Of a DNA stretch of 64,000 nucleotides, positions 2,689-16,400 are shown piece after piece. This DNA is from Pseudomonas synxantha (GTDB taxonomy: Bacteria; Pseudomonadota; Gammaproteobacteria; Pseudomonadales; Pseudomonadaceae): the NCBI RefSeq assembly GCF_900105675.1, contig NZ_LT629786.1, positions 186,001 through 250,000 on the forward strand, given 5' to 3'. Within the stretch, counting starts at the first letter, position 1, and the number at the start of each line of letters is the position of its first letter. The translations under genes were made by a program, and so were the position numbers. The notes beneath the pieces were generated by a model, which saw only the letters and a list, made by a program, of their open reading frames with translations, was not told where the DNA came from and ran no database searches.

Positions 2689-3180
2689 TCAATTCTCCAA
2701 TCCCCGTGCGACCCTATGCAGCAAGGGAAACAGCATGGCCCATAACAACGCCAGGCCGATCAATGTGGCTGAGGTTGCGTAGCCAAAACTCACCCCCGCC
2801 AACTGGCTGCCTGCGTAATAAGACAGAGGCCCGCCCACCGCGCCCAGCAGGCTGGCAAGCCACCAGGGCCGTGCGCTCCAGGCCAGGCAATGGCGCAAGG
2901 TCGTGGCCAGCAATGCCCATAACAACATCAACCAGAATGGAATCATCGGCCCGGGCTCGCTGAAGTGGAAAACTCCCAGGGTGCGTAATAGCGTGTCCAG
3001 CAGCGTGCCTGCGAGTGTCACTGTCACGATAAGCACGCCGTCATCCGCCGGCGAACTTATCCACAGCCAATGGATTCCCAGTACCGCCACGCCCACCAGC
3101 AGCCACAGACTATCGCCGCCAAGCACGCAGGCAAACCAGCCGCACTGGAACAGCACGGCATTGGCCAAGGGTTTAAGCAC
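2689..3180 (-). CDS. DUF2878 family membrane protein
   Basis: The protein has 163 residues and is very hydrophobic, with about five predicted membrane segments. It matches the DUF2878 pattern (an N-terminal ANAVLFQCGWFACVLGG and a middle stretch around GPMIPFWLMLLWALLATTL). I start it at the GTG at 3178-3180, which overlaps the stop of the upstream methyltransferase gene (GTGCTTAA). Longer in-frame starts lie wholly inside that gene. It is the last member of the minus-strand block that starts at 10.7 kb. DUF2878 genes often sit beside cfa/DUF1365/SDR genes in proteobacteria; the function is unknown. Confidence 0.75.
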   Translation of the reverse strand: MLKPLANAVLFQCGWFACVLGGDSLWLLVGVAVLGIHWLWISSPADDGVLIVTVTLAGTLLDTLLRTLGVFHFSEPGPMIPFWLMLLWALLATTLRHCLAWSARPWWLASLLGAVGGPLSYYAGSQLAGVSFGYATSATLIGLALLWAMLFPLLHRVARGLEN

Positions 3181-4444
3181 TGAAGCGCCCGAGCAACGGT
3201 GGGTTGATCGCCGCCGGTTTGGCCAGCAGCAATTGCGCCGTACCAATGGAGCGTTCCATGAAGCCGCCCTCGCAGTAGCACAGGTAAAACTCCCACAAAC
3301 GCAGGAAGTACTCGTCGTAGCCCAATTCGGTGAGGCGGCCATGGGCGCGACGAAAGTTCTCATGCCACAGGCGCAGGGTGCGTGCGTAGTGCAGGCCGAA
3401 GTCTTCCATGTGCAACAGGTTCATGTCTGTGTCGCGGCTGACGATCTGCAGCATGTTTTGTACACAGGGCAAGGCGCCGCCAGGGAAGATATAGCGCTGG
3501 ATAAAGTCGACGCTGCGCTTGGCCTGCTCGAAGCGTTGTTCGCGGATGGTGATGGCTTGTAGCAGCATCAGGCCGTCGGGCTTGAGCAAATGGGCACATT
3601 GCTTGAAATAGGTGGGCAGGAAGCGATGGCCCACTGCTTCGATCATTTCGATCGATACCAGCTTGTCGTACGTGCCGGTGAGGTCACGATAGTCGCTTAG
3701 CAGCAAGGTCACCTGATCTTGCAGGCCCAGTGCCTGGATGCGTTGCGCGGTGTAGGCGAACTGCTCCTTGGACAAGGTCGTGGTGGTGACCTTGCAACCG
3801 TAGTGCTGCGCCGCATACAGCGCCATGCTGCCCCAGCCGGTGCCGATTTCCAGCAGATGGTCACTGGGCTTGAGCGCCAGCTTCTGGCAGATACGCGCCA
3901 ACTTGTTCAGTTGCGCCTGTTCCAGGGTGTCATCGGGCGTCAGGAACTGCGCCGCCGAGTACATCATGGTGGGGTCGAGGAACTCTTCGAACAGGTCGTT
4001 GCCCAGGTCGTAATGGGCGGCAATGTTTTTCTGCGCACCCTTGCGCGTGTTGCGGTTGAGCCAATGCAAGCCTTGGGTGAACGGCCGGGCCAGGCGTGCC
4101 AGGCCACCCTCCATGGCGTCGAGAACGTCCAGGTTGCTGACCATCACCCGGACCACGGCGGTAAGGTCCGGGCTGGTCCAGTAACCGTGGATAAACGCTT
4201 CGCCGGCACCGATTGAACCATTGGCCGCCACCAGGCCCCAGGCCGCCGAGTCGAGAATCTGGATCTCCCCCAGCAGGCGTGCTTCCCGGGCGCCGAAGAC
4301 TTGTCGCTCGCCATCTTCGATGATCACCAACTGACCATGGCGCAATTGGCTGAACTGGCGCAGCACGCCCTTGCGCAACAAGGCGGCGGTCACACCGTTG
4401 ACGTTCAGGCGGTTGGCCTTGACCGATAAGCTAGGGGATTTCAT
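3173..4444 (-). CDS. cfa: Cyclopropane-fatty-acyl-phospholipid synthase family methyltransferase
   Basis: The 423-residue protein is a SAM-dependent methyltransferase of the CFA synthase family, acting on unsaturated acyl chains of membrane phospholipids. The C-terminal two thirds hold the hallmarks AAHYDLGNDLFEEFLD, MMYSAAQF, the SAM loop LEIGTGWGSMALYAA, and FIQRYIFPGG. I start it at the ATG at 4444 (MKSPSLSVKAN), which overlaps the end of the DUF1365 gene by 14 nt. In P. putida a light-induced paralog (ufaM) makes furan fatty acids. The photolyase/MerR context here makes that a plausible alternative to a classical Cfa. The family is certain, the exact product is not. Confidence 0.88.
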   Translation of the reverse strand: MKSPSLSVKANRLNVNGVTAALLRKGVLRQFSQLRHGQLVIIEDGERQVFGAREARLLGEIQILDSAAWGLVAANGSIGAGEAFIHGYWTSPDLTAVVRVMVSNLDVLDAMEGGLARLARPFTQGLHWLNRNTRKGAQKNIAAHYDLGNDLFEEFLDPTMMYSAAQFLTPDDTLEQAQLNKLARICQKLALKPSDHLLEIGTGWGSMALYAAQHYGCKVTTTTLSKEQFAYTAQRIQALGLQDQVTLLLSDYRDLTGTYDKLVSIEMIEAVGHRFLPTYFKQCAHLLKPDGLMLLQAITIREQRFEQAKRSVDFIQRYIFPGGALPCVQNMLQIVSRDTDMNLLHMEDFGLHYARTLRLWHENFRRAHGRLTELGYDEYFLRLWEFYLCYCEGGFMERSIGTAQLLLAKPAAINPPLLGRFSA

Positions 4445-5240
4445 GGTGGCGATCCTTGGTGTACCCAACTGCGGTGCGAGAGACGCCATCGGCGGCCCGG
4501 TGGGGGAAAATCGGTGTGCGCTTGAGCAGTAGGCGCAAGGCTTGCCAGTAGATCGCCAGGCAAGTCTTGGCGGTCATCCAGGGAAAACGCCATAAATAAC
4601 CATGCAGACTGGCGCGGCTCAGAGGTTGCCGTTCCAGGCTCAGGGTGGCGTCGAAGAGTTTCTGTGGGCCCTGCCAGTCGGCCATGTGCACGCCGAGCCT
4701 GGCGGCAGGCGGGCTGAAACTCATGCGGTATTCCAGGTCGCGCGGTAAAAAGGGCGACACATGAAAAGCCTTGGCCACGGCGAAATGCTGGTGCTCATCG
4801 GCGGCGAGCGCCTGGGCCGGCAGCACGTAGTGATAGCGCTCGCGCCAGGGGGTGTTGGTCACTTCACACAGGATCGCGGCCAATCGTCCGTCGGCCTCGA
4901 AGCAGTAGAAGAAACTCACAGGATTAAAAGCCAGGCCCCAACTGCGGGCCTGGGTCAGTAGGCAGATAACGCCCCGGGGTGTATGCCCCAGTGCCTTGCC
5001 GACTTCGTGGCGCACGGCATCGCTCAAGCTCATGCCGTGGCGGGTGAATTCACGCAGATAGTCCTGCTGGCGGAAACCGAAGGGCGCCAAGCGACTTGGG
5101 CCGGCCATGGGCGACAGGCCAAGCACTTCATCCTCTTCGCTGAGGTCCAGGTACAGCAGGCCGATGCGGTAGCGAAAGGCGTGGGCCCTGGGCGCAAACC
5201 GGCGATGGGCGATCCAGCCGCTGTACAGGGCACTATTCAT
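4431..5240 (-). CDS. DUF1365 domain-containing protein
   Basis: The 269-residue protein matches DUF1365 over its whole length: HRRFAPRAHAFRY near the N-terminus, ICLLTQARSWGLAFNPVSFF in the middle, and FHVSPFLPRDLEYRM later. The function is unknown, but the family is nearly always encoded between an FAD-dependent amine-oxidase-like protein and a CFA-like methyltransferase, as here. The start ATG at 5238-5240 overlaps the upstream stop in an ATGA. A role in fatty-acid modification at the membrane is inference from neighbours only. Confidence 0.85.
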   Translation of the reverse strand: MNSALYSGWIAHRRFAPRAHAFRYRIGLLYLDLSEEDEVLGLSPMAGPSRLAPFGFRQQDYLREFTRHGMSLSDAVRHEVGKALGHTPRGVICLLTQARSWGLAFNPVSFFYCFEADGRLAAILCEVTNTPWRERYHYVLPAQALAADEHQHFAVAKAFHVSPFLPRDLEYRMSFSPPAARLGVHMADWQGPQKLFDATLSLERQPLSRASLHGYLWRFPWMTAKTCLAIYWQALRLLLKRTPIFPHRAADGVSRTAVGYTKDRHHEIP

Positions 5241-6484
5241 AGGGCTTCCCCAAAGGCTTGGGCCACGCGCAGGGCACTGACCACTCCGTCTTCGTGAAAA
5301 CCGTTGGCCCAGTAGGCACCGCAGTAGAAGGTGTTGCGCGCACCGTGCAGTTCTTCCCAGCGGGCTTGAGCGGCCACGGCGGCCAGGCTGTACTGCGGAT
5401 GGGCATAGGTGTAGCGCGCAAGGATCTTCAACGGGTTGATCATCTGCGTCTGGTTGAGGCTGACGCAAAAGGTGGTGGTGCTGTCGATACCTTGCAGAAT
5501 GTTCATGTCGTAGGTCACAGCCGCCTGAGGCTGCTGGTTGCCGGTCAGCCGGTAATTCCAGCTGGCCCAGGCCAGTTTGCGGTCGGGCAGCAGGCGCGTG
5601 TCGGTGTGCAGCACCACGTCGTTGTTGGCGTAGGGCAGCGCACCGAGGATCTCCTGTTCAGCCTGGCTGGGATCGGCGAGCAAGGCCAGGGCCTGATCGC
5701 TGTGGCAGGCGAACACCACACGGTCGAAGGTTTCGCTGCCGGCGGGACTGTGGATAACCACGCCATCGTCCGTGCGTTGCACCTTATGCACAGGGCAATT
5801 GAGTCGTACTTGTTCGATAAAGCTGCGGGTCAGCGGTTCGATATAGCGGCTGGAGCCGCCTTCGATCACGCACCATTGCGGGCGGTTGCTCACCGAGAGC
5901 AAGCCGTGGTTCTTGAAGAAGCGCACAAAGAACTGCAGCGGAAAGTTGAGCATGTCGGCCAGGGACATCGACCAGATTGCCGCGCCCATCGGCACGATGT
6001 AGTGCCGGATAAACCTGGGGCCATAGCCGCCGGCTGCAAGATAGTCGCCGAGGGTCATCTCGGCGCTGATGCGCTGCGCTTGCAGGTCCAGGGGGGCCTG
6101 GCGGTTGAAGCGCAGGATATCGCGCAACATGCCCCAGAAGCCCGGCGACAGAAGATTGCGGCGCTGGGCAAACAGGCTGTTGAGGTTGTTGCCGTTGTAC
6201 TCGAAGCCGGTGCTTTGGTCGCACACCGAAAAACTCATCTCGGTGGGTTTGAATTTGACGCCAATCTGGCCCAGCAGGCGGATGAAATTAGGGTAGGTCC
6301 AGTCATTGAACACAATGAAGCCTGTGTCCACCGCATAGCTTTTTCCCTCAACTGTCACGTTGGCCGTATGGGTATGCCCGCCGATGCAGTCACCCGCTTC
6401 GAACAAGGTAATGTCGTGGCGGCGGCTGAGCAGGTAGGCGCTGGTCAGCCCGGCGATGCCGCTGCCGATGATGGCGATCTTCAC
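5237..6484 (-). CDS. FAD/NAD(P)-dependent oxidoreductase (amine-oxidase fold)
   Basis: The protein has 415 residues starting VKIAIIGSGIAGLTSAYLL, with the FAD-binding GxGxxG at residues 7-12, followed by E-A-G-D-x-x-G-G-H-T. It resembles the amine-oxidase-like flavoproteins encoded beside CFA-type methyltransferases, some of which desaturate acyl chains in furan-fatty-acid synthesis. The GTG start at 6482-6484 overlaps the stop of the SDR gene. The 3' end overlaps the DUF1365 start by 4 nt, so the genes look translationally coupled. The substrate is not determined. Confidence 0.85.
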   Translation of the reverse strand: MKIAIIGSGIAGLTSAYLLSRRHDITLFEAGDCIGGHTHTANVTVEGKSYAVDTGFIVFNDWTYPNFIRLLGQIGVKFKPTEMSFSVCDQSTGFEYNGNNLNSLFAQRRNLLSPGFWGMLRDILRFNRQAPLDLQAQRISAEMTLGDYLAAGGYGPRFIRHYIVPMGAAIWSMSLADMLNFPLQFFVRFFKNHGLLSVSNRPQWCVIEGGSSRYIEPLTRSFIEQVRLNCPVHKVQRTDDGVVIHSPAGSETFDRVVFACHSDQALALLADPSQAEQEILGALPYANNDVVLHTDTRLLPDRKLAWASWNYRLTGNQQPQAAVTYDMNILQGIDSTTTFCVSLNQTQMINPLKILARYTYAHPQYSLAAVAAQARWEELHGARNTFYCGAYWANGFHEDGVVSALRVAQAFGEAL

Positions 6485-7260
6485 AGTTCGTCCGTGTGCG
6501 GCGGCGGGCTGCGCAGCATGCGCTTGCCGATAATCAGTTGCGCCCGGTTGGGCAGCTTGGACAAAGGCCACAGGGTGGCGATGAACATCGCCGGGAAGGC
6601 GATCTCCAGCGGGCGTTTTTCCAGTTTTGCAAAGATATGCCGTGCCGCTTTGTTAGCGGACCAGCTCAAGGGCATCGGGAAATCATTGCGCTCGGTCAGC
6701 GGCGTGTCCACAAAGCCAGGGCTGATCACCGTGACGTCAATGTTTTCCGGCGACAGGCTGATGCGCAGGGATTCGAACAGGTAGCGCAGCCCTGCCTTGG
6801 ACGCGCCATAGGCTTCGGCGCGGGGCATTGGCAGATAAGTCACGGCGCTGGCCACGCCCACCAGGTGCGGGGTAAGCCCGGCGCGCAACAGCGGCAGCGC
6901 AGCCTCGATGCAATAACTGCTGGCCAGCAGGTTGGTGCGCACTACGTGCTCGATGATCGAGGAGTCAAATTGCCGGGCGTCGACATATTCACAGGTGCCG
7001 GCATTAAGGATCACCGTGTCCAGGGCACCCCAGACCTCGCCGATACGTTCACCGATCTCGCGCACGGTCTGGCTGTTGGTCAGGTCGCCGGCCACCACCA
7101 GCACTTGCCCCGGATAGCGATGGGCGAGCGCTTCCAGCGGACCTTTGGTGCGGGAGCTGAGTGCCACGTGGGCGCCGCTGTTGAGCAACTCCACGGCCAG
7201 CGCGGCACCGATGCCACTGCTGGCGCCGGTCAACCAATAACGTCGGGGAGCAAGGTTCAT
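6481..7260 (-). CDS. Short-chain dehydrogenase/reductase (SDR)
   Basis: The protein has 259 residues with the SDR cofactor motif TGASSGIG (11-18), NAG at 86-88, and the catalytic set S138, Y151 and K155. The start at 7260 is chosen because GGAG lies just upstream and the ATG sits in an ATGA overlap with the stop of the short ORF at 7257-7349. It is part of the tightly packed phrB-SDR-FAD-DUF1365-cfa run. The substrate is unknown. A hydrophobic C-terminal region (IAFPAMFIATLWPLSKLP) suggests membrane association. Confidence 0.88.
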   Translation of the reverse strand: MNLAPRRYWLTGASSGIGAALAVELLNSGAHVALSSRTKGPLEALAHRYPGQVLVVAGDLTNSQTVREIGERIGEVWGALDTVILNAGTCEYVDARQFDSSIIEHVVRTNLLASSYCIEAALPLLRAGLTPHLVGVASAVTYLPMPRAEAYGASKAGLRYLFESLRISLSPENIDVTVISPGFVDTPLTERNDFPMPLSWSANKAARHIFAKLEKRPLEIAFPAMFIATLWPLSKLPNRAQLIIGKRMLRSPPPHTDEL

Positions 7261-7349
7261 CCCATTCTCCTTTTCAGCCAACTGACGGTACGTCCAAGTA
7301 CCGGTACGTGTTCATATAGCAGGACCAAACCAGCGAAATTGTCACTCAT
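7257..7349 (-). pseudogene. 30-codon ORF, possible in-frame deletion scar of an NTF2-like gene
   Basis: A short open frame starts at ATG 7347-7349, overlapping the phrB stop, and ends in a TGA (7257-7259) that overlaps the SDR start codon as ATGA. The product begins MSDNFAGLV and ends LGRTVSWLKRRMG. In related Pseudomonas operons I recall a gene of about 150 codons for a nuclear-transport-factor-2-like protein between photolyase and SDR. The intact couplings at both ends with almost no middle suggest that an internal in-frame deletion joined its first and last codons. It could also be a functional micropeptide or only a coupling ORF. Confidence 0.45.
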
Positions 7350-8784
7350 GTTCGGCCATCTCCTGACGTGAAGGCAGGCTGCGAAAGGCGGCCAAGGCAC
7401 GCTCCCGGGACTGCTTCAGGTCAACGATGGCCCGCGGGTAATCCGCCACGCCGAACAGGCCGCCGGCCGCTGCCGGGTTATGCACCTCTTTTTTGTTCAG
7501 CGCTGCGAGTTCCGGCAGCCAGCGCTTGATGAAGATGCCATCGCCGTCGAATTTTTCCGATTGGCTCAGCGGGCTGAAAATTCGGAAGTAGGGGGCCGAG
7601 TCGGTGCCGGTCGATGAACTCCACTGCCAGCCGCCGTTGTTGGCCGCCAGGTCGCCGTCGATCAGGTGCCGCATAAAAAAGCGCTCGCCTTCGCGCCAGT
7701 CGATCAGCAGGTTCTTGGTCAGGAACATCGCCACCACCATGCGCAGGCGGTTGTGCATCCACCCGGTTTCCAGCAGTTGGCGCATGGCCGCGTCGATGAT
7801 TGGCAGTCCGGTACGTGCCTGTTGCCAGGCGGCCAGGTCCGCAGGCGCGTCGCGCCAGGCCAGTGCTTCGGTTTCCGGGCGAAAGGCGCGGTGCCTGGAC
7901 ACCCGTGGGTATCCGACCAGGATATGTTTGTAGAACTCGCGCCACAGTAACTCATTGATCCAGGTGATGGCGCCGATGTCGCCGCTTTCGAACTCGCCCT
8001 GGTTGGTTTGCAGCGCGGCGTGCAAGCACTGGCGCGGCGACACTACCCCGGCGGCGAGGTAGGCGGACAGTTGGCTGGTGCCGGGTTTGGCCGGGAAGTC
8101 GCGCTCGTCCTTGTAATAGCTGATCTGCTGGTTGGCGAAGGCGTCGAGACGGCGGCGAGCTTCGTCTTCACCGGCGGGCCAGAGGGCGCGCAAGCTGTCG
8201 CTGGAGGGCTCGAAACCTTCTACCGTTGTCGGCACAGGATCGCTTTTCAACTCAAGCCTGGCCTGCGCCTTGGGCGTTGCGACCAGGCGGGGCAGGGAAG
8301 TGTGCAGGCGGTTGTAGCAGACCTTGCGGAACTGGCTGAACACCTGGAAGTAGGTGCCGGTCTTGGTCAGCACGCTGCCCGGCTGGAACAACAACTGGTC
8401 CAGGTAGCTGTGAAAGGTCACCCCGCGCGCTTCCAGGGCCTTGGCCACCGCAGCATCGCGCTGGCTTTCGTGGATGCCGTATTCCTCGTTGACGTGCACC
8501 GATTCCACCGAAAGTTCCTGGCACACCTCGCTCAACACAGTCGGCGCCTGGTTCCAGGTCGCCGCGTGGCGGATCAACAGCGGGATGTTCAATTCGCCCA
8601 GCGCCACGCTCAACTGGCGCAGGTTGCGCAGCCAGAAGTCAACTTTACACGGCGCGTCATCATGGGCCAGCCACTGCTCGGGCGTGACCAGGTAAATGGC
8701 CACGACCGGGCCGCGCTGGCTCGCGGCAGCCAGGGCGGTGTTGTCGTGCAGGCGCAGGTCGGTGCGCAGCCAGATCAAATGCAT
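7342..8784 (-). CDS. phrB: Deoxyribodipyrimidine photolyase
   Basis: PhrB repairs cyclobutane pyrimidine dimers in DNA using blue light and FAD. The 480-residue protein begins MHLIWLRTDLRLHDN, the antenna-domain start of class I photolyases. The C-terminal FAD domain contains TGWMHNRLRMVVAMFLTKN, DGDLAANNGGWQW and DSAPYFRIFSP, the usual flavin-cradle and substrate motifs. The start is two bases from the MerR gene stop, so the two are co-transcribed. The MerR-phrB pairing and the upstream TGTACA operators argue for photo-induction. Confidence 0.95.
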   Translation of the reverse strand: MHLIWLRTDLRLHDNTALAAASQRGPVVAIYLVTPEQWLAHDDAPCKVDFWLRNLRQLSVALGELNIPLLIRHAATWNQAPTVLSEVCQELSVESVHVNEEYGIHESQRDAAVAKALEARGVTFHSYLDQLLFQPGSVLTKTGTYFQVFSQFRKVCYNRLHTSLPRLVATPKAQARLELKSDPVPTTVEGFEPSSDSLRALWPAGEDEARRRLDAFANQQISYYKDERDFPAKPGTSQLSAYLAAGVVSPRQCLHAALQTNQGEFESGDIGAITWINELLWREFYKHILVGYPRVSRHRAFRPETEALAWRDAPADLAAWQQARTGLPIIDAAMRQLLETGWMHNRLRMVVAMFLTKNLLIDWREGERFFMRHLIDGDLAANNGGWQWSSSTGTDSAPYFRIFSPLSQSEKFDGDGIFIKRWLPELAALNKKEVHNPAAAGGLFGVADYPRAIVDLKQSRERALAAFRSLPSRQEMAEHE

Positions 8785-9714
8785 TTAGACAATTCCACGC
8801 TGGATCAATAACTGGTGGGCCGCCAATGGGTCTTCGGCCACAAACAATTCAGGCATGTCACGGGTTAAGTCGGCCAGCTCGACGTGATGGATACACACCG
8901 TTGGGCCGGCAATCAATATTGGGCAACTGACGCCGCCCAATAGTTTTGTGAGTGCCGACAAATGGAGGGCCTTGCTTGAGTACAACAGCACGGCACGCGG
9001 TTGCAGATGCTCCACCGCCAGCGCCAATTCGCCGGCCGGCAGTGGCCAGTCAAACACTTCCACCGGGCAATCGGCACTGCTGGCCAGCCAGGCGCTGAGC
9101 CACAAGTGTGGTTCCAGTGGCAAGTCGGAATGGTTGATCAGCAGCAGCGGTGCGCCGTGGAGCTGGCGATTGTTGTGATAAATCCGCGCGCCGAACTTGC
9201 TGCGCAGCCAGGACAGGAAAAACACCCGCTCCATCTGCGCGCCGAACTGGCCCTGCCAACGCTGCTCCAGCTCCCGGAGCAGCGGCAGCATCAATTGTTC
9301 GCACAAGGTACGCGGCGGGTAGAGCGCCATGGCTTGGTTGAAAGCATCGTCGACCCGGCGTTCCGCCAGTTCGCTGATGGCACTGAGCAAATGCTGGCGC
9401 AGGCTGTGCCACTCGTTTTCCATCGGCTCGGCACTGGGTTGGGCCGAATCGATCAAATCCTTGACCTGGCTGACTGGCACGCCGCGATTGAGCCATGTGA
9501 GGATGGCATGGATGCGTTGCACGTGTTCGGTACTGAACAGCCGATGCCCCTTGGGCGTGCGCTGGGGCACGATCAGGCCGTAGCGGCGTTCCCAGGCGCG
9601 CAGGGTCACAGCGTTGACGCCGGTCTGGCGTGCCACTTCACGGATCGGCAACCAGCCGTTTTCCAAAGCCAGGGCAATGTCTTCGCCGGGTTCGTCGAGC
9701 AGGGCAGGTTTCAT
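8785..9714 (-). CDS. MerR-family regulator, LitR/CarH/PplR-like
   Basis: The 309-residue protein has an N-terminal MerR helix-turn-helix (REVARQTGVNAVTLRAWERRYGL, from residue 25) followed by a long C-terminal region of the size seen in LitR/CarH photoregulators. I do not see the cobalamin-binding DxHxxG motif there, which fits the class II LitR proteins (PplR of P. putida) that work with LOV photoreceptors rather than B12. It is encoded 3 nt after the DUF523/DUF1722 gene and directly before phrB. The expected target motif occurs twice upstream of the operon, so autoregulation is likely. Confidence 0.82.
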   Translation of the reverse strand: MKPALLDEPGEDIALALENGWLPIREVARQTGVNAVTLRAWERRYGLIVPQRTPKGHRLFSTEHVQRIHAILTWLNRGVPVSQVKDLIDSAQPSAEPMENEWHSLRQHLLSAISELAERRVDDAFNQAMALYPPRTLCEQLMLPLLRELEQRWQGQFGAQMERVFFLSWLRSKFGARIYHNNRQLHGAPLLLINHSDLPLEPHLWLSAWLASSADCPVEVFDWPLPAGELALAVEHLQPRAVLLYSSKALHLSALTKLLGGVSCPILIAGPTVCIHHVELADLTRDMPELFVAEDPLAAHQLLIQRGIV

Positions 9715-9717
9715 GGA

Positions 9718-10677
9718 TTAAATCGCATTACGCAGGCTGAGGTTTTCCGGGTGCGGTTGCAGGTAGGCCTGCTGCGCGATGTAGCGGTCCGGATGCTGGC
9801 GAAAGTGATGCTTGAGCAGGGTCAGCGGCACCACTAGCGGCACAATGCCGTGGCGGTATTGGCCGATGACGGTTTGCATTTCCTGTTTGTCATCGTCGCT
9901 GATGACCTGCTTGAGGTAGCCGCTGATGTGTTGCAATACATTGGTGTGAGTGCCGCGTGTGGCGCACTTTTTCAGGCCTGCCATCAGCTCGCTGAAGTAG
10001 CCGTGGGCCAGTGCCTGGAGATCGACGCCCTTGCCCATGCTGCCGAGCAAATGGCCCAGGCTTTTGTAATGCGCCGGACTGTGGGCCATCAGCAGGTATT
10101 TGTAGCGCGAGTGGAACGTCAGCAGGCCGTGACGGGTGAGTCCCTCGGCCAGCAATCGCTGCCAACTGGCGTAAACGAATACGCGAGTCAGGAAGTTCTC
10201 GCGCAGCACCGGGTCATTCAGGCGGCCGTCTTCTTCCACCGGCAGGTTGGGGTGGCGTGCGCAGAATGCCCGGGCGTAGATACCGCGCCCGCCACCGTCG
10301 ACGGGCGTGCCGTTGTCGCGGTATACCTTGACCCGTTCAAGGCCGCAGGACGGCGACTTCTGCATGAAGATGTAGCCGCACAGGTCGGTGTGTTCCCGGG
10401 CCATTCGCTGCCCGTAGTCATCCAGAGGCTGCGTAACGTTGAGCTCACGGTTTACCGTGCCAACGGCTTGCGGCGCGGCAGGGTCGCCCACCAGGCGGAT
10501 CGGCTCCCGAGGGATGCCCAGGCCGATGGCGACTTCCGGGCACAGCGGCACAAAATCGAAATAGTCGCTGAGGGTCTGGGTGCACAGCAGGGATTGTTTA
10601 TGCCCACCGTTGAAGCGCACGTTTTCACCCAGGAGGCAGGCACTGATGGCGATCTTCGGTTTTGCATTGCTGGACAT
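9718..10677 (-). CDS. DUF523 and DUF1722 domain protein (YbgA-like)
   Basis: The 319-residue protein has an N-terminal DUF523 domain (ISACLLGENVRFNGGHK, then SPSCG near residue 103, roughly residues 5-145) and a C-terminal DUF1722/YbgA domain (roughly 190-305, with the R-Y-K-Y-L-L-M-A-H-S motif). The biochemical role is unclear; in E. coli, ybgA lies beside phr, and that association is kept here. I start at ATG 10675-10677, with AGAGG upstream, rather than the TTG two codons earlier. It is the first gene of the photolyase operon, directly downstream of the promoter at 10.73-10.76 kb. Confidence 0.87.
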   Translation of the reverse strand: MSSNAKPKIAISACLLGENVRFNGGHKQSLLCTQTLSDYFDFVPLCPEVAIGLGIPREPIRLVGDPAAPQAVGTVNRELNVTQPLDDYGQRMAREHTDLCGYIFMQKSPSCGLERVKVYRDNGTPVDGGGRGIYARAFCARHPNLPVEEDGRLNDPVLRENFLTRVFVYASWQRLLAEGLTRHGLLTFHSRYKYLLMAHSPAHYKSLGHLLGSMGKGVDLQALAHGYFSELMAGLKKCATRGTHTNVLQHISGYLKQVISDDDKQEMQTVIGQYRHGIVPLVVPLTLLKHHFRQHPDRYIAQQAYLQPHPENLSLRNAI

Positions 10678-10699: not shown

Positions 10700-10723
10700 T
10701 GTACAAGATGGAAAACTTGTACA
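10700..10723. promoter_or_regulatory. PplR/LitR-type operator, downstream copy
   Basis: TGTACA (10700-10705), exactly 12 nt, then TGTACA (10718-10723). This is a perfect match to the published P. putida PplR1 consensus T(G/A)TACA-N12-TGTA(C/T)A. It lies in the 5' leader between the -10 element and the ribosome site of the DUF523/DUF1722 gene. Confidence 0.75.
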
Positions 10724-10733
10724 ACTAACTCTC

Positions 10734-10761
10734 ATCATAGGTCCGATGTTGTACAAGTCAA
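10734..10761 (-). promoter_or_regulatory. Probable sigma-70-type promoter of the light-responsive operon
   Basis: On the minus strand, TTGACT (10756-10761) and TATGAT (10734-10739) are separated by 16 nt. The -35 hexamer falls inside the upstream TGTACA operator, and the other operator lies just downstream of the expected start of transcription. Confidence 0.6.
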
Positions 10762-10773
10762 ATAATTTGTACA
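10750..10773. promoter_or_regulatory. PplR/LitR-type operator, promoter-overlapping copy
   Basis: TGTACA (10750-10755), 12 nt, TGTACA (10768-10773), again a perfect consensus match. It covers the predicted -35 element, so bound regulator should block RNA polymerase in the dark. Confidence 0.75.
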
Positions 10774-10787
10774 GGTCTTTGCAGGGT

Positions 10788-12016
<1,229 letters not shown>

Positions 12017-12035: not shown

Positions 12036-12059
12036 TGTACAATATTGTTTTTTGGTATA
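12036..12059 (-). promoter_or_regulatory. PplR/LitR-type operator upstream of the renalase-like gene
   Basis: Read on the minus strand, TATACC, exactly 12 nt, then TGTACA. It fits T(G/A)TACA-N12-TGTA(C/T)A with one mismatch and lies about 50-73 nt before the start codon at 11986. Confidence 0.55.
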
Positions 12060-13112: not shown

Positions 13113-14138
13113 ATGACGGATCACGCGTTGTTACTGGTCAACCTGGGCTCGCCAAAGTCCACTTCGGTGGCCGATGTGCGCAGCTACCTCAATCAGTTCC
13201 TGATGGATCCCTACGTGATCGACTTGCCTTGGCCGGTAAGGCGCTTGCTGGTGTCGCTGATCCTGATCAAGCGTCCCGAGCAGTCGGCCCATGCCTACGC
13301 ATCGATCTGGTGGGACGAGGGTTCGCCGCTGGTGGTGCTGAGCCGTCGCCTGCAACAGCAGATGACCGCGCAGTGGACCCATGGCCCGGTGGAGCTGGCG
13401 ATGCGGTATGGCGAGCCGTCCCTGGAAACCACCCTGACGCGCTTGGCCGCCCAAGGCATCCAGAACGTCACGCTGGCGCCGTTGTATCCGCAGTTTGCCG
13501 ACAGCACCGTGACCACGGTGGTGGAGGAGGCCAAGCGTGTGGTGCGCGACAAGAAGCTGAATATCCAGTTTTCGATCCTGCAACCTTTCTATGATCAGCC
13601 CGAATATCTGGATGCCCTGGTGACCAGCACCCAGGCTCACCTGACGCAGGATTACGATCATTTGTTGCTGAGTTTCCATGGCTTGCCCGAACGGCATCTG
13701 AAAAAGCTCGACCCTACCGGCGGGCATTGCTTCAAGGATGCCGACTGCTGCAGGAATGCATCACCTGAAGTGCTCGCCACGTGCTATCGCGCGCAATGCT
13801 TCAGCGTTGCCCGGGATTTTGCCGAGCGTGCCGGCTTGCCCGATGGCAAATGGTCGGTCGCGTTTCAATCGCGTCTGGGTCGGGCGAAGTGGATCGAGCC
13901 CTACACCGAGACACGCCTGGAAGCGCTGGCCCAGCAAGGCGTGAAAAAGTTGCTGGTGATGTGCCCGGCGTTTGTCGCCGACTGCATCGAGACGCTGGAA
14001 GAAATTGGCGATCGCGGTCGCGAGCAGTTTCGCGCGGCGGGGGGCGAGGAGTTGGTGCTGGTGCCGTGCCTGAATGATGACCCGCAGTGGGCGGCGGCGC
14101 TTAATACCCTGTGCGAACGAGCTCCCGTTGCCTTGTAG
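13113..14138 (+). CDS. hemH: Ferrochelatase HemH
   Basis: HemH inserts Fe2+ into protoporphyrin IX, the last step of heme synthesis. The 341-residue protein begins with [13 protein letters not shown] and carries the active-site signature [10 protein letters not shown] (the metal-ligand histidine) and [15 protein letters not shown]. The short cysteine group C-F-K-D-A-D-C-C lies between them. Length and motifs are standard for gammaproteobacteria. It follows the YfcH-like gene closely and is followed by a REP pair. Confidence 0.96.
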
Positions 14139-14265: not shown

Positions 14266-16359
14266 TCAGAGATTGAGGGTCAGGCTGACGGTGAGGTTGC
14301 GCGGTTCACCGGGGTTCGCCCAATAGCGGCTGTAGGACCGCTCGTAGTACTTCTCATCGAACAGATTGTTAAGGTTCAACCCCACGGTGACATTCTTCGT
14401 AGCCTTGTAGTGGGCCAGCAAATCCACGGTGTGATAGGCCGGCAGCTCGAAACCTGTACCCGCTTCACCGGAGCGATCACCGACATAAGTGAACGCTGCA
14501 CCCAGATCCGAGCCACGCAACGCGCCATCCTGGAATTCATACACCCCCAACAGACTGCCACTGCGCTTGGCTACGCCGAGAATGCGGCTGCCGGTGGGGA
14601 TTTCTTTGTCGCCCTTGGTCACTTCGGCGTCGATATACGCGAAGGCGCCGATCACACGTATGGCGTCGGTCACTTGCCCGGTCACTTGCAGGTCAAGGCC
14701 CTGGCTGCGAGCCTTGCCCATGGCGCGGTTGGTGTCGGTCGCCGGGTCCAGGGCCAAAACGTTTTCCTTTTCGATATGGAAGGCGGCCAGGGTGGCGCTG
14801 AGTCGCTCGTCAAACAGTTCGCTCTTGATCCCCACCTCATAGCCCACGCCTTCTTCTGGCTTGAAGGATTTGCCACCGGCATCCAGGCCGCTGTTTGGCT
14901 TGAACGAGGTGGACGCGTTGGCAAATACCCCCACTTGTGGCGTGAGTTGGTAGAGCAGGCCGGCGCGCTGGGTAAAGGCGTCGTGGGTCTGGCGACTTTT
15001 GACGTGGTTGCGGGCAAAGTCGTCGGTGCTTTGTTCGAAATGTTCGAAGCGCGCGCCGATCATGCCGCGCAGGCGGTCGGTGAAGATGATCTGGTCTTGT
15101 AGATTCAGCGCGTGGCTTTTGGTCTGTTCGAAGAAGTCGGTACCAGAGCGTTTGCCATTGGCTTTGGGCTGGCCATAGACCGGTTTATAGATATCGATAG
15201 GGTAGTCGCCATCGATCGCTGTCACGCGCTCTTTCTTGCGGTAGTCCTCGTATTCGGTGCCGATCAGCAGTTCATGCTGCCAACTGCCAATATCGAACAG
15301 GCCGCGTAGTTCCAACTGGGTGATGCTGTCGTGCCAGCCCGTGGAGCGTTCACGGTAGCGGCGGTTGACGGTGCGGCCATCCGCGTAAAGCGCACGGCTT
15401 TCCGACGCGTCGCCCCACAGACTGCCTTGCTTGTAGTGGCTGGCCAGGCGCAGCTTCCAGGCATCGTTGAGGTGGTGTTCCAACGCGGCCTGGATGCGAT
15501 TGTTGTGGTTATCAATGTTGCCGTCGTTGGGCTCGCCGAGGAAGGTTGAGTGGGACATGCCGGTATTGGCGACGATGCCGCGGTCGAAGGTGGAGCTGTG
15601 GCGCACGAATTCGCTTTCTACGAGCAGATGGGTGTCGGGGTCGAGTTGCCAACTGAATGAAGGCGCGACGAACACCCGTTTGCTGTCGACGTGATCGCGA
15701 AAGCTGTGGTTGTCTTCCACCGCCAGGTTGACCCGGGACAATACGCGCCCTTCGCCGTCCAGCGGTGTATTCACGTCCAAAGCGGTGCGGTAGCGGTCCC
15801 AACTGGCAGCGCTGGTCTGCAGGGTGGTGAAGGCGTCGGGCTGGGGTTTCTTGGTGACGATATTCACCGTGCCGCCAGGGTCGCCACGCCCATACAGGCT
15901 GGCGGCGGGGCCCTTAAGCACTTCAATGCGTTCGATATTGGCAGTATCGGGTGTGCTCGGGTAACCGCGGTTGGCGCTGAAACCATCCTGGTAGAACTCG
16001 GACGTGGTGAAGCCGCGCACACTGTATTCGTAGAGGGTCAGGCCGCCGAAGTTGTTCTGCTTGGACACGCCGCCGGCAAATTCCAGGGCGCGTTCCACAC
16101 TGGTGCTGCCCAGGTCCTTGAGCACTGTGGCCGGAATCACGCTGATCGACTGTGGGATATCGCGCACGGCGGTGTCGGTCTTGGTGGCACTGGCCGAGCG
16201 TGTGGCACGGTAGCCCGTGACTGGTCCGGTGGCGGATTCATAGGCCTCGGAGGTCACGCTGATGGTGTCCAGTTCCAGGGTGTTTTCTTCGGCGTAGGCA
16301 GGGTCGAGCAGCAAACCCAGGGCCAGGCCGGCCGAGGGCACAAACTTGCGAGGCGGCAT
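14266..16359 (-). CDS. TonB-dependent siderophore receptor
   Basis: The 697-residue outer-membrane receptor begins MPPRKFVPSAGLALGLLL, a signal peptide that ends near AYAEEN. It continues with a TonB-box-like ELDTISVTS, a plug domain (about 60-170: DTAVRDIPQSISVIP, IERIEVLKGPAASLYGRGDP, GGTVNIVTKKP) and a beta-barrel ending in LTVSLTLNL. There is no N-terminal signalling domain and no adjacent sigma/anti-sigma pair, so it is not a FecA-type transducer. The true start is the ATG at 16359; an in-frame TTG lies five codons earlier. The siderophore cannot be told from sequence. Confidence 0.9.
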   Translation of the reverse strand: MPPRKFVPSAGLALGLLLDPAYAEENTLELDTISVTSEAYESATGPVTGYRATRSASATKTDTAVRDIPQSISVIPATVLKDLGSTSVERALEFAGGVSKQNNFGGLTLYEYSVRGFTTSEFYQDGFSANRGYPSTPDTANIERIEVLKGPAASLYGRGDPGGTVNIVTKKPQPDAFTTLQTSAASWDRYRTALDVNTPLDGEGRVLSRVNLAVEDNHSFRDHVDSKRVFVAPSFSWQLDPDTHLLVESEFVRHSSTFDRGIVANTGMSHSTFLGEPNDGNIDNHNNRIQAALEHHLNDAWKLRLASHYKQGSLWGDASESRALYADGRTVNRRYRERSTGWHDSITQLELRGLFDIGSWQHELLIGTEYEDYRKKERVTAIDGDYPIDIYKPVYGQPKANGKRSGTDFFEQTKSHALNLQDQIIFTDRLRGMIGARFEHFEQSTDDFARNHVKSRQTHDAFTQRAGLLYQLTPQVGVFANASTSFKPNSGLDAGGKSFKPEEGVGYEVGIKSELFDERLSATLAAFHIEKENVLALDPATDTNRAMGKARSQGLDLQVTGQVTDAIRVIGAFAYIDAEVTKGDKEIPTGSRILGVAKRSGSLLGVYEFQDGALRGSDLGAAFTYVGDRSGEAGTGFELPAYHTVDLLAHYKATKNVTVGLNLNNLFDEKYYERSYSRYWANPGEPRNLTVSLTLNL

Positions 16360-16400
16360 GATAGAGCGTTCCAATGGCGATATTGAAACAATATAACATG

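Follow-up and report, generated by a model that had tools for sequence, protein, structure and literature searches.

Promoter P6650 of Pseudomonas mendocina NBRC 14162 has been described as a target of light control (PMC9758184). Its core reads TTGACT-N16-TATGAT, transcription starts 48 bp before the ATG, and two operators of the form TGTACA-N12-TGTACA are present, Site 1 lying over the -35 element and Site 2 between the transcription start and the ATG. The regulator PmlR2 leaves one broad footprint on this promoter, extending from +32 to -45 and from +37 to -54 on the two strands. In surface plasmon resonance it binds Site 2, and does not bind Site 2 with both half-sites replaced. PmlR2 represses transcription in vitro, and illuminated PmSB-LOV counters PmlR2. 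The PmlR2-LOV complex was found on DNA in gel shifts but off DNA in BIAcore measurements, of which the authors favour the latter (PMC9758184). The same report gives PME6650 as a hypothetical protein, names ufaM in the region, and describes the half-sites TGTACA and GGTATA before folM. A second source reports that a single LitR-controlled operon encodes PhrB, LitR and RudS, and proposes that light-controlled RudS would strip a UV-sensitive tRNA base as light arrives (PMC11417400). The two sources differ on class II LitR, for which B12 is described as not required (PMC9758184) or as B12-dependent (PMC11417400).

Here we analyse a 64,000-nt stretch of the Pseudomonas synxantha genome (NZ_LT629786.1, positions 186,001 to 250,000; hereafter the window). 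It very probably holds a light-responsive promoter of a rudS-litR-phrB operon, the counterpart of P6650, which by analogy with P. mendocina would be occluded by LitR and relieved by a LOV protein. The switch is thus already known from a relative, and what we describe is this strain's copy. A reading of the bare sequence had therefore picked out a real, published switch. The present analysis adds the breadth over which the layout is conserved, a third operator that recurs among relatives, and genomes that keep the switch without the known sensor.

Two operators around one promoter

Two letter-perfect copies of TGTACA-N12-TGTACA are found on the minus strand, at 10750..10773 (Site 1) and 10700..10723 (Site 2). 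Their centres are 50 bp apart and both fall within 74 bp. The -35 element TTGACT (10756..10761) lies inside the N12 of Site 1, and the -10 element TATGAT (10734..10739) follows on the same strand after a 16 bp spacer, giving the same TTGACT-N16-TATGAT core as in P6650. The start codon fitting this promoter is the ATG at 10677-10675, so that the minus strand reads Site 1, TATGAT, Site 2 and ATG in that order. With the start placed 48 bp ahead of the ATG, by analogy with P6650, Site 2 would occupy approximately +3 to +26, between the expected start and the ATG. The original prediction had described two operators with identical half-sites and an exact 12-nt gap, one covering TTGACT and one in the 5' leader, and had likened them to the PplR1 consensus T(G/A)TACA-N12-TGTA(C/T)A. 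All of this holds: the match to the consensus is exact at both sites, and the leader position follows by analogy with the P6650 start.

Such pairs are rare by chance. Were the 16 TGTACA words of the window spread evenly, about 0.004 perfect N12 pairs would be expected; two are observed. Allowing up to two mismatches, the window contains six sites; shuffled sequences average 1.01, and none of 100 has as many as six. The genome-wide search of the consensus that had been proposed with the prediction returned only three exact places in the whole 6.84-Mb genome, namely Site 1, Site 2 and a position at 1954181. With up to one mismatch, 17 places were found against eight in a backward control; many of these one-mismatch matches are therefore probably background.

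Genes of the operon and a LOV protein elsewhere in the genome

The first gene behind the promoter (9718..10677, minus strand, 319 aa) is a rudS homologue. Its product combines a 2-thiouracil desulfurase (TudS-type) domain with DUF1722 and matches a solved TudS chain. The three Fe-S cysteines (Cys14, Cys46, Cys111) and the catalytic residues (Glu48, Arg57, Ser108, Ser110) are all present, each three below the RudS_KT numbering, the correspondence having been made by this offset and not by alignment. These catalytic and Fe-S residues are needed in RudS_KT, the P. putida protein PP_0741 (PMC11417400). By homology, the first protein would thus be a tRNA 4-thiouridine desulfidase (RudS), and from its position we infer that PME6650 of P. 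mendocina is rudS as well.

The second gene (8785..9714, minus strand, 309 aa) encodes a class II LitR/CarH-type MerR regulator, PplR1/PmlR1-like by position. The domain scan identified a MerR helix-turn-helix and a B12-binding_2 domain and no B12-binding domain in this protein, as in class II LitR; among solved structures, its best match is 3whp, followed by CarH (5c8d). The third gene is phrB (7342..8784, minus strand), a deoxyribodipyrimidine photolyase scoring above the NCBIfam cut-off. With 3 bp between rudS and litR, and none between litR and phrB, a single transcript is likely. Further along the minus strand lie a short-chain dehydrogenase, presumably co-transcribed in the same operon (6481..7260), and, by domain scan, an FAD-dependent amine-oxidase-type protein (5237..6487), a DUF1365 protein (4431..5240) and a cyclopropane-fatty-acid-synthase-type methyltransferase (3173..4489), the starts of these four genes not being fixed. 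Two further genes near the operon, at 13113-14138 and 14266-16374, read to us like a ferrochelatase and a TonB-dependent receptor, respectively.

These assignments modify the prediction in two respects. It had spoken of a photolyase operon; phrB does belong to it, but as the third gene, the first being rudS. It had also supposed that the operon carries the gene of its own regulator. A MerR gene of the right family does lie inside, but in P. mendocina the protein with demonstrated binding is PmlR2, encoded elsewhere beside the LOV gene. The MerR gene of the operon therefore need not specify the only or the main binder.

A corresponding pair of genes is present elsewhere in this genome. One encodes a further class II LitR (L050:7585-8541; scanned only against NCBIfam), with 37% identity over 262 aa to the LitR of the window; the adjoining one encodes a LOV-type protein of 159 aa with the sequence DCRFLQ (L050:6439-6918). 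A search with a motif of other LOV proteins gave no match in this genome; the DCRFLQ form was found afterwards. Against solved structures, this LOV protein matches 7yx0 best (E-value = 2.1e-92), and also 3sw1 (E-value = 5.5e-53), which we take to be PpSB1-LOV. The genes following the LOV-LitR pair read to us like fol genes, as in P. mendocina. Neither the light sensor nor the operator at 12036 discussed below had been part of the original prediction.

Recurrence of the operators in other genomes

Of 298 Pseudomonas genomes, 96 carry a strict double site (gap 14-44), at any promoter. The relaxed form (gap exactly 26, up to three mismatches) was found in 63 of 109 Pseudomonas genomes and never in the backward control; at least four of the 63 (G024, G025, G102, G104) lack the TTGACT/TATGAT core and must therefore belong to another promoter. 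To place the sites relative to genes, we collected 109 double-site loci, 30 from the Pseudomonas search and 80 among the matches listed in a second search, less one repeat array (L133). The loci were oriented by their match to rudS or phrB. An earlier rule, based on resemblance to TTGACT, had misturned some of them (e.g. L128 and L157), and it underlies the sister-pair test and the third-operator count given below.

Among the matches listed, 97 of the 109 loci are anchored to the operon, 95 before rudS and two before phrB; nine of them belong to what we take to be Vibrionaceae. The 88 anchored loci outside that family come from Pseudomonas, one Stutzerimonas and two metagenome-assembled genomes (MAGs) titled only Gammaproteobacteria, and comprise 84 distinct sequences among the matches listed. 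Of these 88 listed loci, 73 have TTGACT and 65 have TATGAT at the 16-bp spacer, a number that rises to 83 if one mismatch is allowed. The gap between the two operators is 26 bp in 69, 25 bp in nine, 27 bp in seven and 22 bp in three. The second search supplied 40 further loci to this sample, 32 of them with a rudS match, including at least two from Vibrionaceae (L186 and L210). Here again, within the sample, TTGACT is frequent (27 of 32), and 20 loci have TATGAT with the 16-bp spacing, 24 if one mismatch is allowed. Gaps of 26 bp (18 loci), 25 bp (seven) and 27 bp (three) are the commonest, and gaps of 28, 22, 21 and 20 bp occur in one locus each.

The 12 unanchored loci among the matches listed consist of a repeat-like one from Marinomonas (L104), a cut locus (L131) and ten at another promoter. 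In the six of these ten that were translated (L031, L102, L108, L129, L149, L159), the double operator precedes the gene of a 140-aa protein; L129 and L159 also have a LitR-like gene nearby, and the end of a short LOV match falls 30 bp or less upstream of the operator. Three contigs (L133, L184, L198) contain at least 24, five and four matches to the double-site pattern, respectively, apparently as repeat arrays. A single double-site match was seen in an Actinomycetota MAG (L171) and in a Psychrobacter (L203), with no match to the window proteins.

A third operator lies in the window at 12036..12059 (minus strand), reading TATACC-N12-TGTACA on one strand and TGTACA-N12-GGTATA on the other. It is located 50 bp before the start of an FAD gene (11000-11986), with a DUF2389 gene (10788-11006) also downstream. 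A counterpart deviating at no more than one position from T(G/A)TACA-N12-(T/G)GTA(C/T)A was found in 60 of the 62 relatives whose upstream region was covered, a count obtained with a consensus widened to (T/G) after the window site had been seen, from the best match within some 250 bp and with no shuffled control. Most counterparts have their upstream end 69-74 bp ahead of the coding-start match, compared with 73 bp in the window. This conservation, together with the half-sites reported before folM of P. mendocina, suggests that the FAD-DUF2389 genes are probably part of the same regulon.

The remaining perfect site, at 1954181 (L051:5182-5205), has a further TGTACA 5 bp on and stands about 200 bp upstream of a gene for a methyl-accepting chemotaxis protein, measured to the start chosen for that gene. 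The exact consensus was not found at seven homologous chemoreceptor loci (E-value 1e-150) in five other genomes. We therefore did not retain a light-regulated chemoreceptor as a candidate; the site may be strain-specific.

Several genomes keep the double operator and give no match to a short LOV protein. In the nine genomes of the presumed Vibrionaceae with the double operator before rudS among the matches listed (L107, L114, L127, L130, L137, L155, L156, L166, L170; completeness unstated), a search at E-value 1e-10 detected no short LOV, the only matches being in frames of 846, 591 and 994 aa. The same search of 15 Pseudomonas genomes (completeness likewise unstated) gave a match at 1e-57 or better in 13; in P. 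cichorii (L091, G320) and P. nitroreducens (L105, G323), LOV matches occur only in frames of 542 and 916 aa. Short BLUF proteins are encoded in six of the nine Vibrionaceae genomes, none of them near the operator-rudS cassette. The 11 BLUF regions, one of which (L246) ends at a contig end, showed no tblastn match to the six window proteins, so a BLUF gene near the cassette was rejected as a candidate. These regions also hold no operator with up to one mismatch, and the link to BLUF is therefore one of co-occurrence only. The DxHxxG motif is absent from the six complete Vibrionaceae LitR proteins, the other three being cut, short or not found. Within Pseudomonas, six of 109 genomes gave no LOV match at E-value 1e-25, and the complementary figure of 103 overstates the presence of short LOV proteins, since some of those genomes (G013, G027, G028, G054, G093) match only in frames of more than 1000 aa. 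Four of the six LOV-less genomes keep the double site with TTGACT, namely G018, G026 (three mismatches), G056 (one) and G094 (one), so a short LOV is not always the partner of the switch. BLUF was not detected in the five of these six genomes that were searched (G020 was left out). A speculative and rather doubtful reading of this distribution is that Pseudomonas and Vibrionaceae share an ancient two-operator switch in front of rudS and that its sensor was exchanged, with a short LOV in most Pseudomonas, and a short BLUF or another sensor in Vibrionaceae and the few Pseudomonas without LOV.

Proposed switch, rival readings and related systems

On the model of P. mendocina, class II LitR proteins would sit in the dark on Site 1, over the -35 element, and on Site 2, just past the start, and would shut the promoter by occlusion. 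Blue light would activate the short LOV protein, whose gene lies apart from this operon; the activated LOV would bind LitR and take it off the DNA, and RudS, LitR itself, photolyase and the downstream enzymes would then be made. Such a switch would silence UV-protection genes in the dark, which is ordinary for its kind. We infer by analogy that this strain acts like P. mendocina, and the same holds for any view on which LitR of the two is the binder and on the length of the transcript.

The repression from two sites that had been predicted is supported, as binding and repression were demonstrated at the corresponding P. mendocina promoter (PMC9758184) and the anatomy is the same here. The prediction went further and considered cooperative looping. 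Contact or looping between the regulators on both sites, for which the exact spacing would be important, could explain why sites 50 bp apart from centre to centre are conserved as a pair, with 26 bp as the commonest gap in both sets of sampled loci. The gap nevertheless departs from 26 bp in 19 of the 88 listed loci outside Vibrionaceae, ranges from 23 to 27 bp in the nine listed Vibrionaceae loci, and extends from 20 to 28 bp in the 32 further ones and over all 129 anchored loci of the sample. Wherever the -35 and -10 elements keep their 16-bp spacing, it is the stretch from the -10 element to Site 2 that varies in length, which argues for occlusion and against a strict loop. In addition, the footprint reported for P6650 runs unbroken across both sites and the promoter (PMC9758184). 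Looping is thus unlikely, and this part of the prediction is not upheld. Still less credible, to the point where we do not claim it, is that Site 2 also, or mainly, serves as a 5'-terminal hairpin of the mRNA. For the window leader, an 8-bp stem is predicted at its 5' end, and in 81 distinct Site 2 sequences among the matches listed, the three pairs inside the TGTACA arms match in 53, 51 and 34 cases, against 29.0, 26.8 and 21.6 expected from shuffled right halves of Site 2. This signal, strong by shuffling, is weak elsewhere. Two-sided changes that keep the match number five on the dyad in 36 sister pairs, against one to three at five other offsets; a tree of 84 RudS proteins contains only five compensatory branches, and changed branches end matched in 45 of 115 cases at dyad positions and in 182 of 656 elsewhere (Fisher P = 0.01, the branches not being independent). 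An RNA signature is also missing: departures to G-T and to A-C are equal in the tree (10 and 10), so that G-U shows no excess over A-C, G-T is below expectation at all three pairs, contrary to RNA pairing, and the full-length leader is no more stably folded than its shuffled versions (z = -0.56). Recognition of an extended half-site by the protein, or repeat-templated mutation, would explain the symmetry of Site 2 equally well.

Another possibility concerns the signal rather than the DNA, namely that the regulator here answers to an input other than LOV, such as oxidative stress. A MerR-like protein of Vibrio cholerae, encoded beside phr, is involved in the blue-light response and has been proposed as a target of reactive oxygen species (PMC5241685), and double-site genomes lacking a short LOV match do exist, as described above. 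In this genome, on the other hand, a short LOV gene adjoins a LitR gene as in P. mendocina, which makes a non-LOV input very unlikely for this strain.

The system of P6650, PmlR2 and PmSB-LOV resembles this locus in the core promoter, in both operators and their placement, and in the LOV gene near a second LitR gene, and the resemblance extends over the region to pmlR1, phrB, the dehydrogenase, the FAD protein and ufaM. It differs in that no site with up to one mismatch was found in the LOV-LitR-fol region of this genome, unlike the reported folM site. Sumi et al. (2020) are said to have described the PplR1-PplR3 light regulon of P. putida KT2440. As cited in PMC9758184 and PMC11417400, that regulon shares with this locus the consensus T(G/A)TACA-N12-TGTA(C/T)A and the RudS-LitR-PhrB operon, but involves three PplR proteins, where this genome has two strong LitR matches. 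The coenzyme-B12 light regulators CarH/LitR of class I have a MerR-type helix-turn-helix and B12-binding_2 in common with the LitR of the window, and are set apart from it by the B12-binding domain that our scan did not detect there. In the E. coli BluR-BluF system (named in PMC9758184), the sensor is BLUF and not LOV, and a search of this genome for BLUF gave no match; what the two share is a MerR-type regulator placed under the control of a separate blue-light protein.
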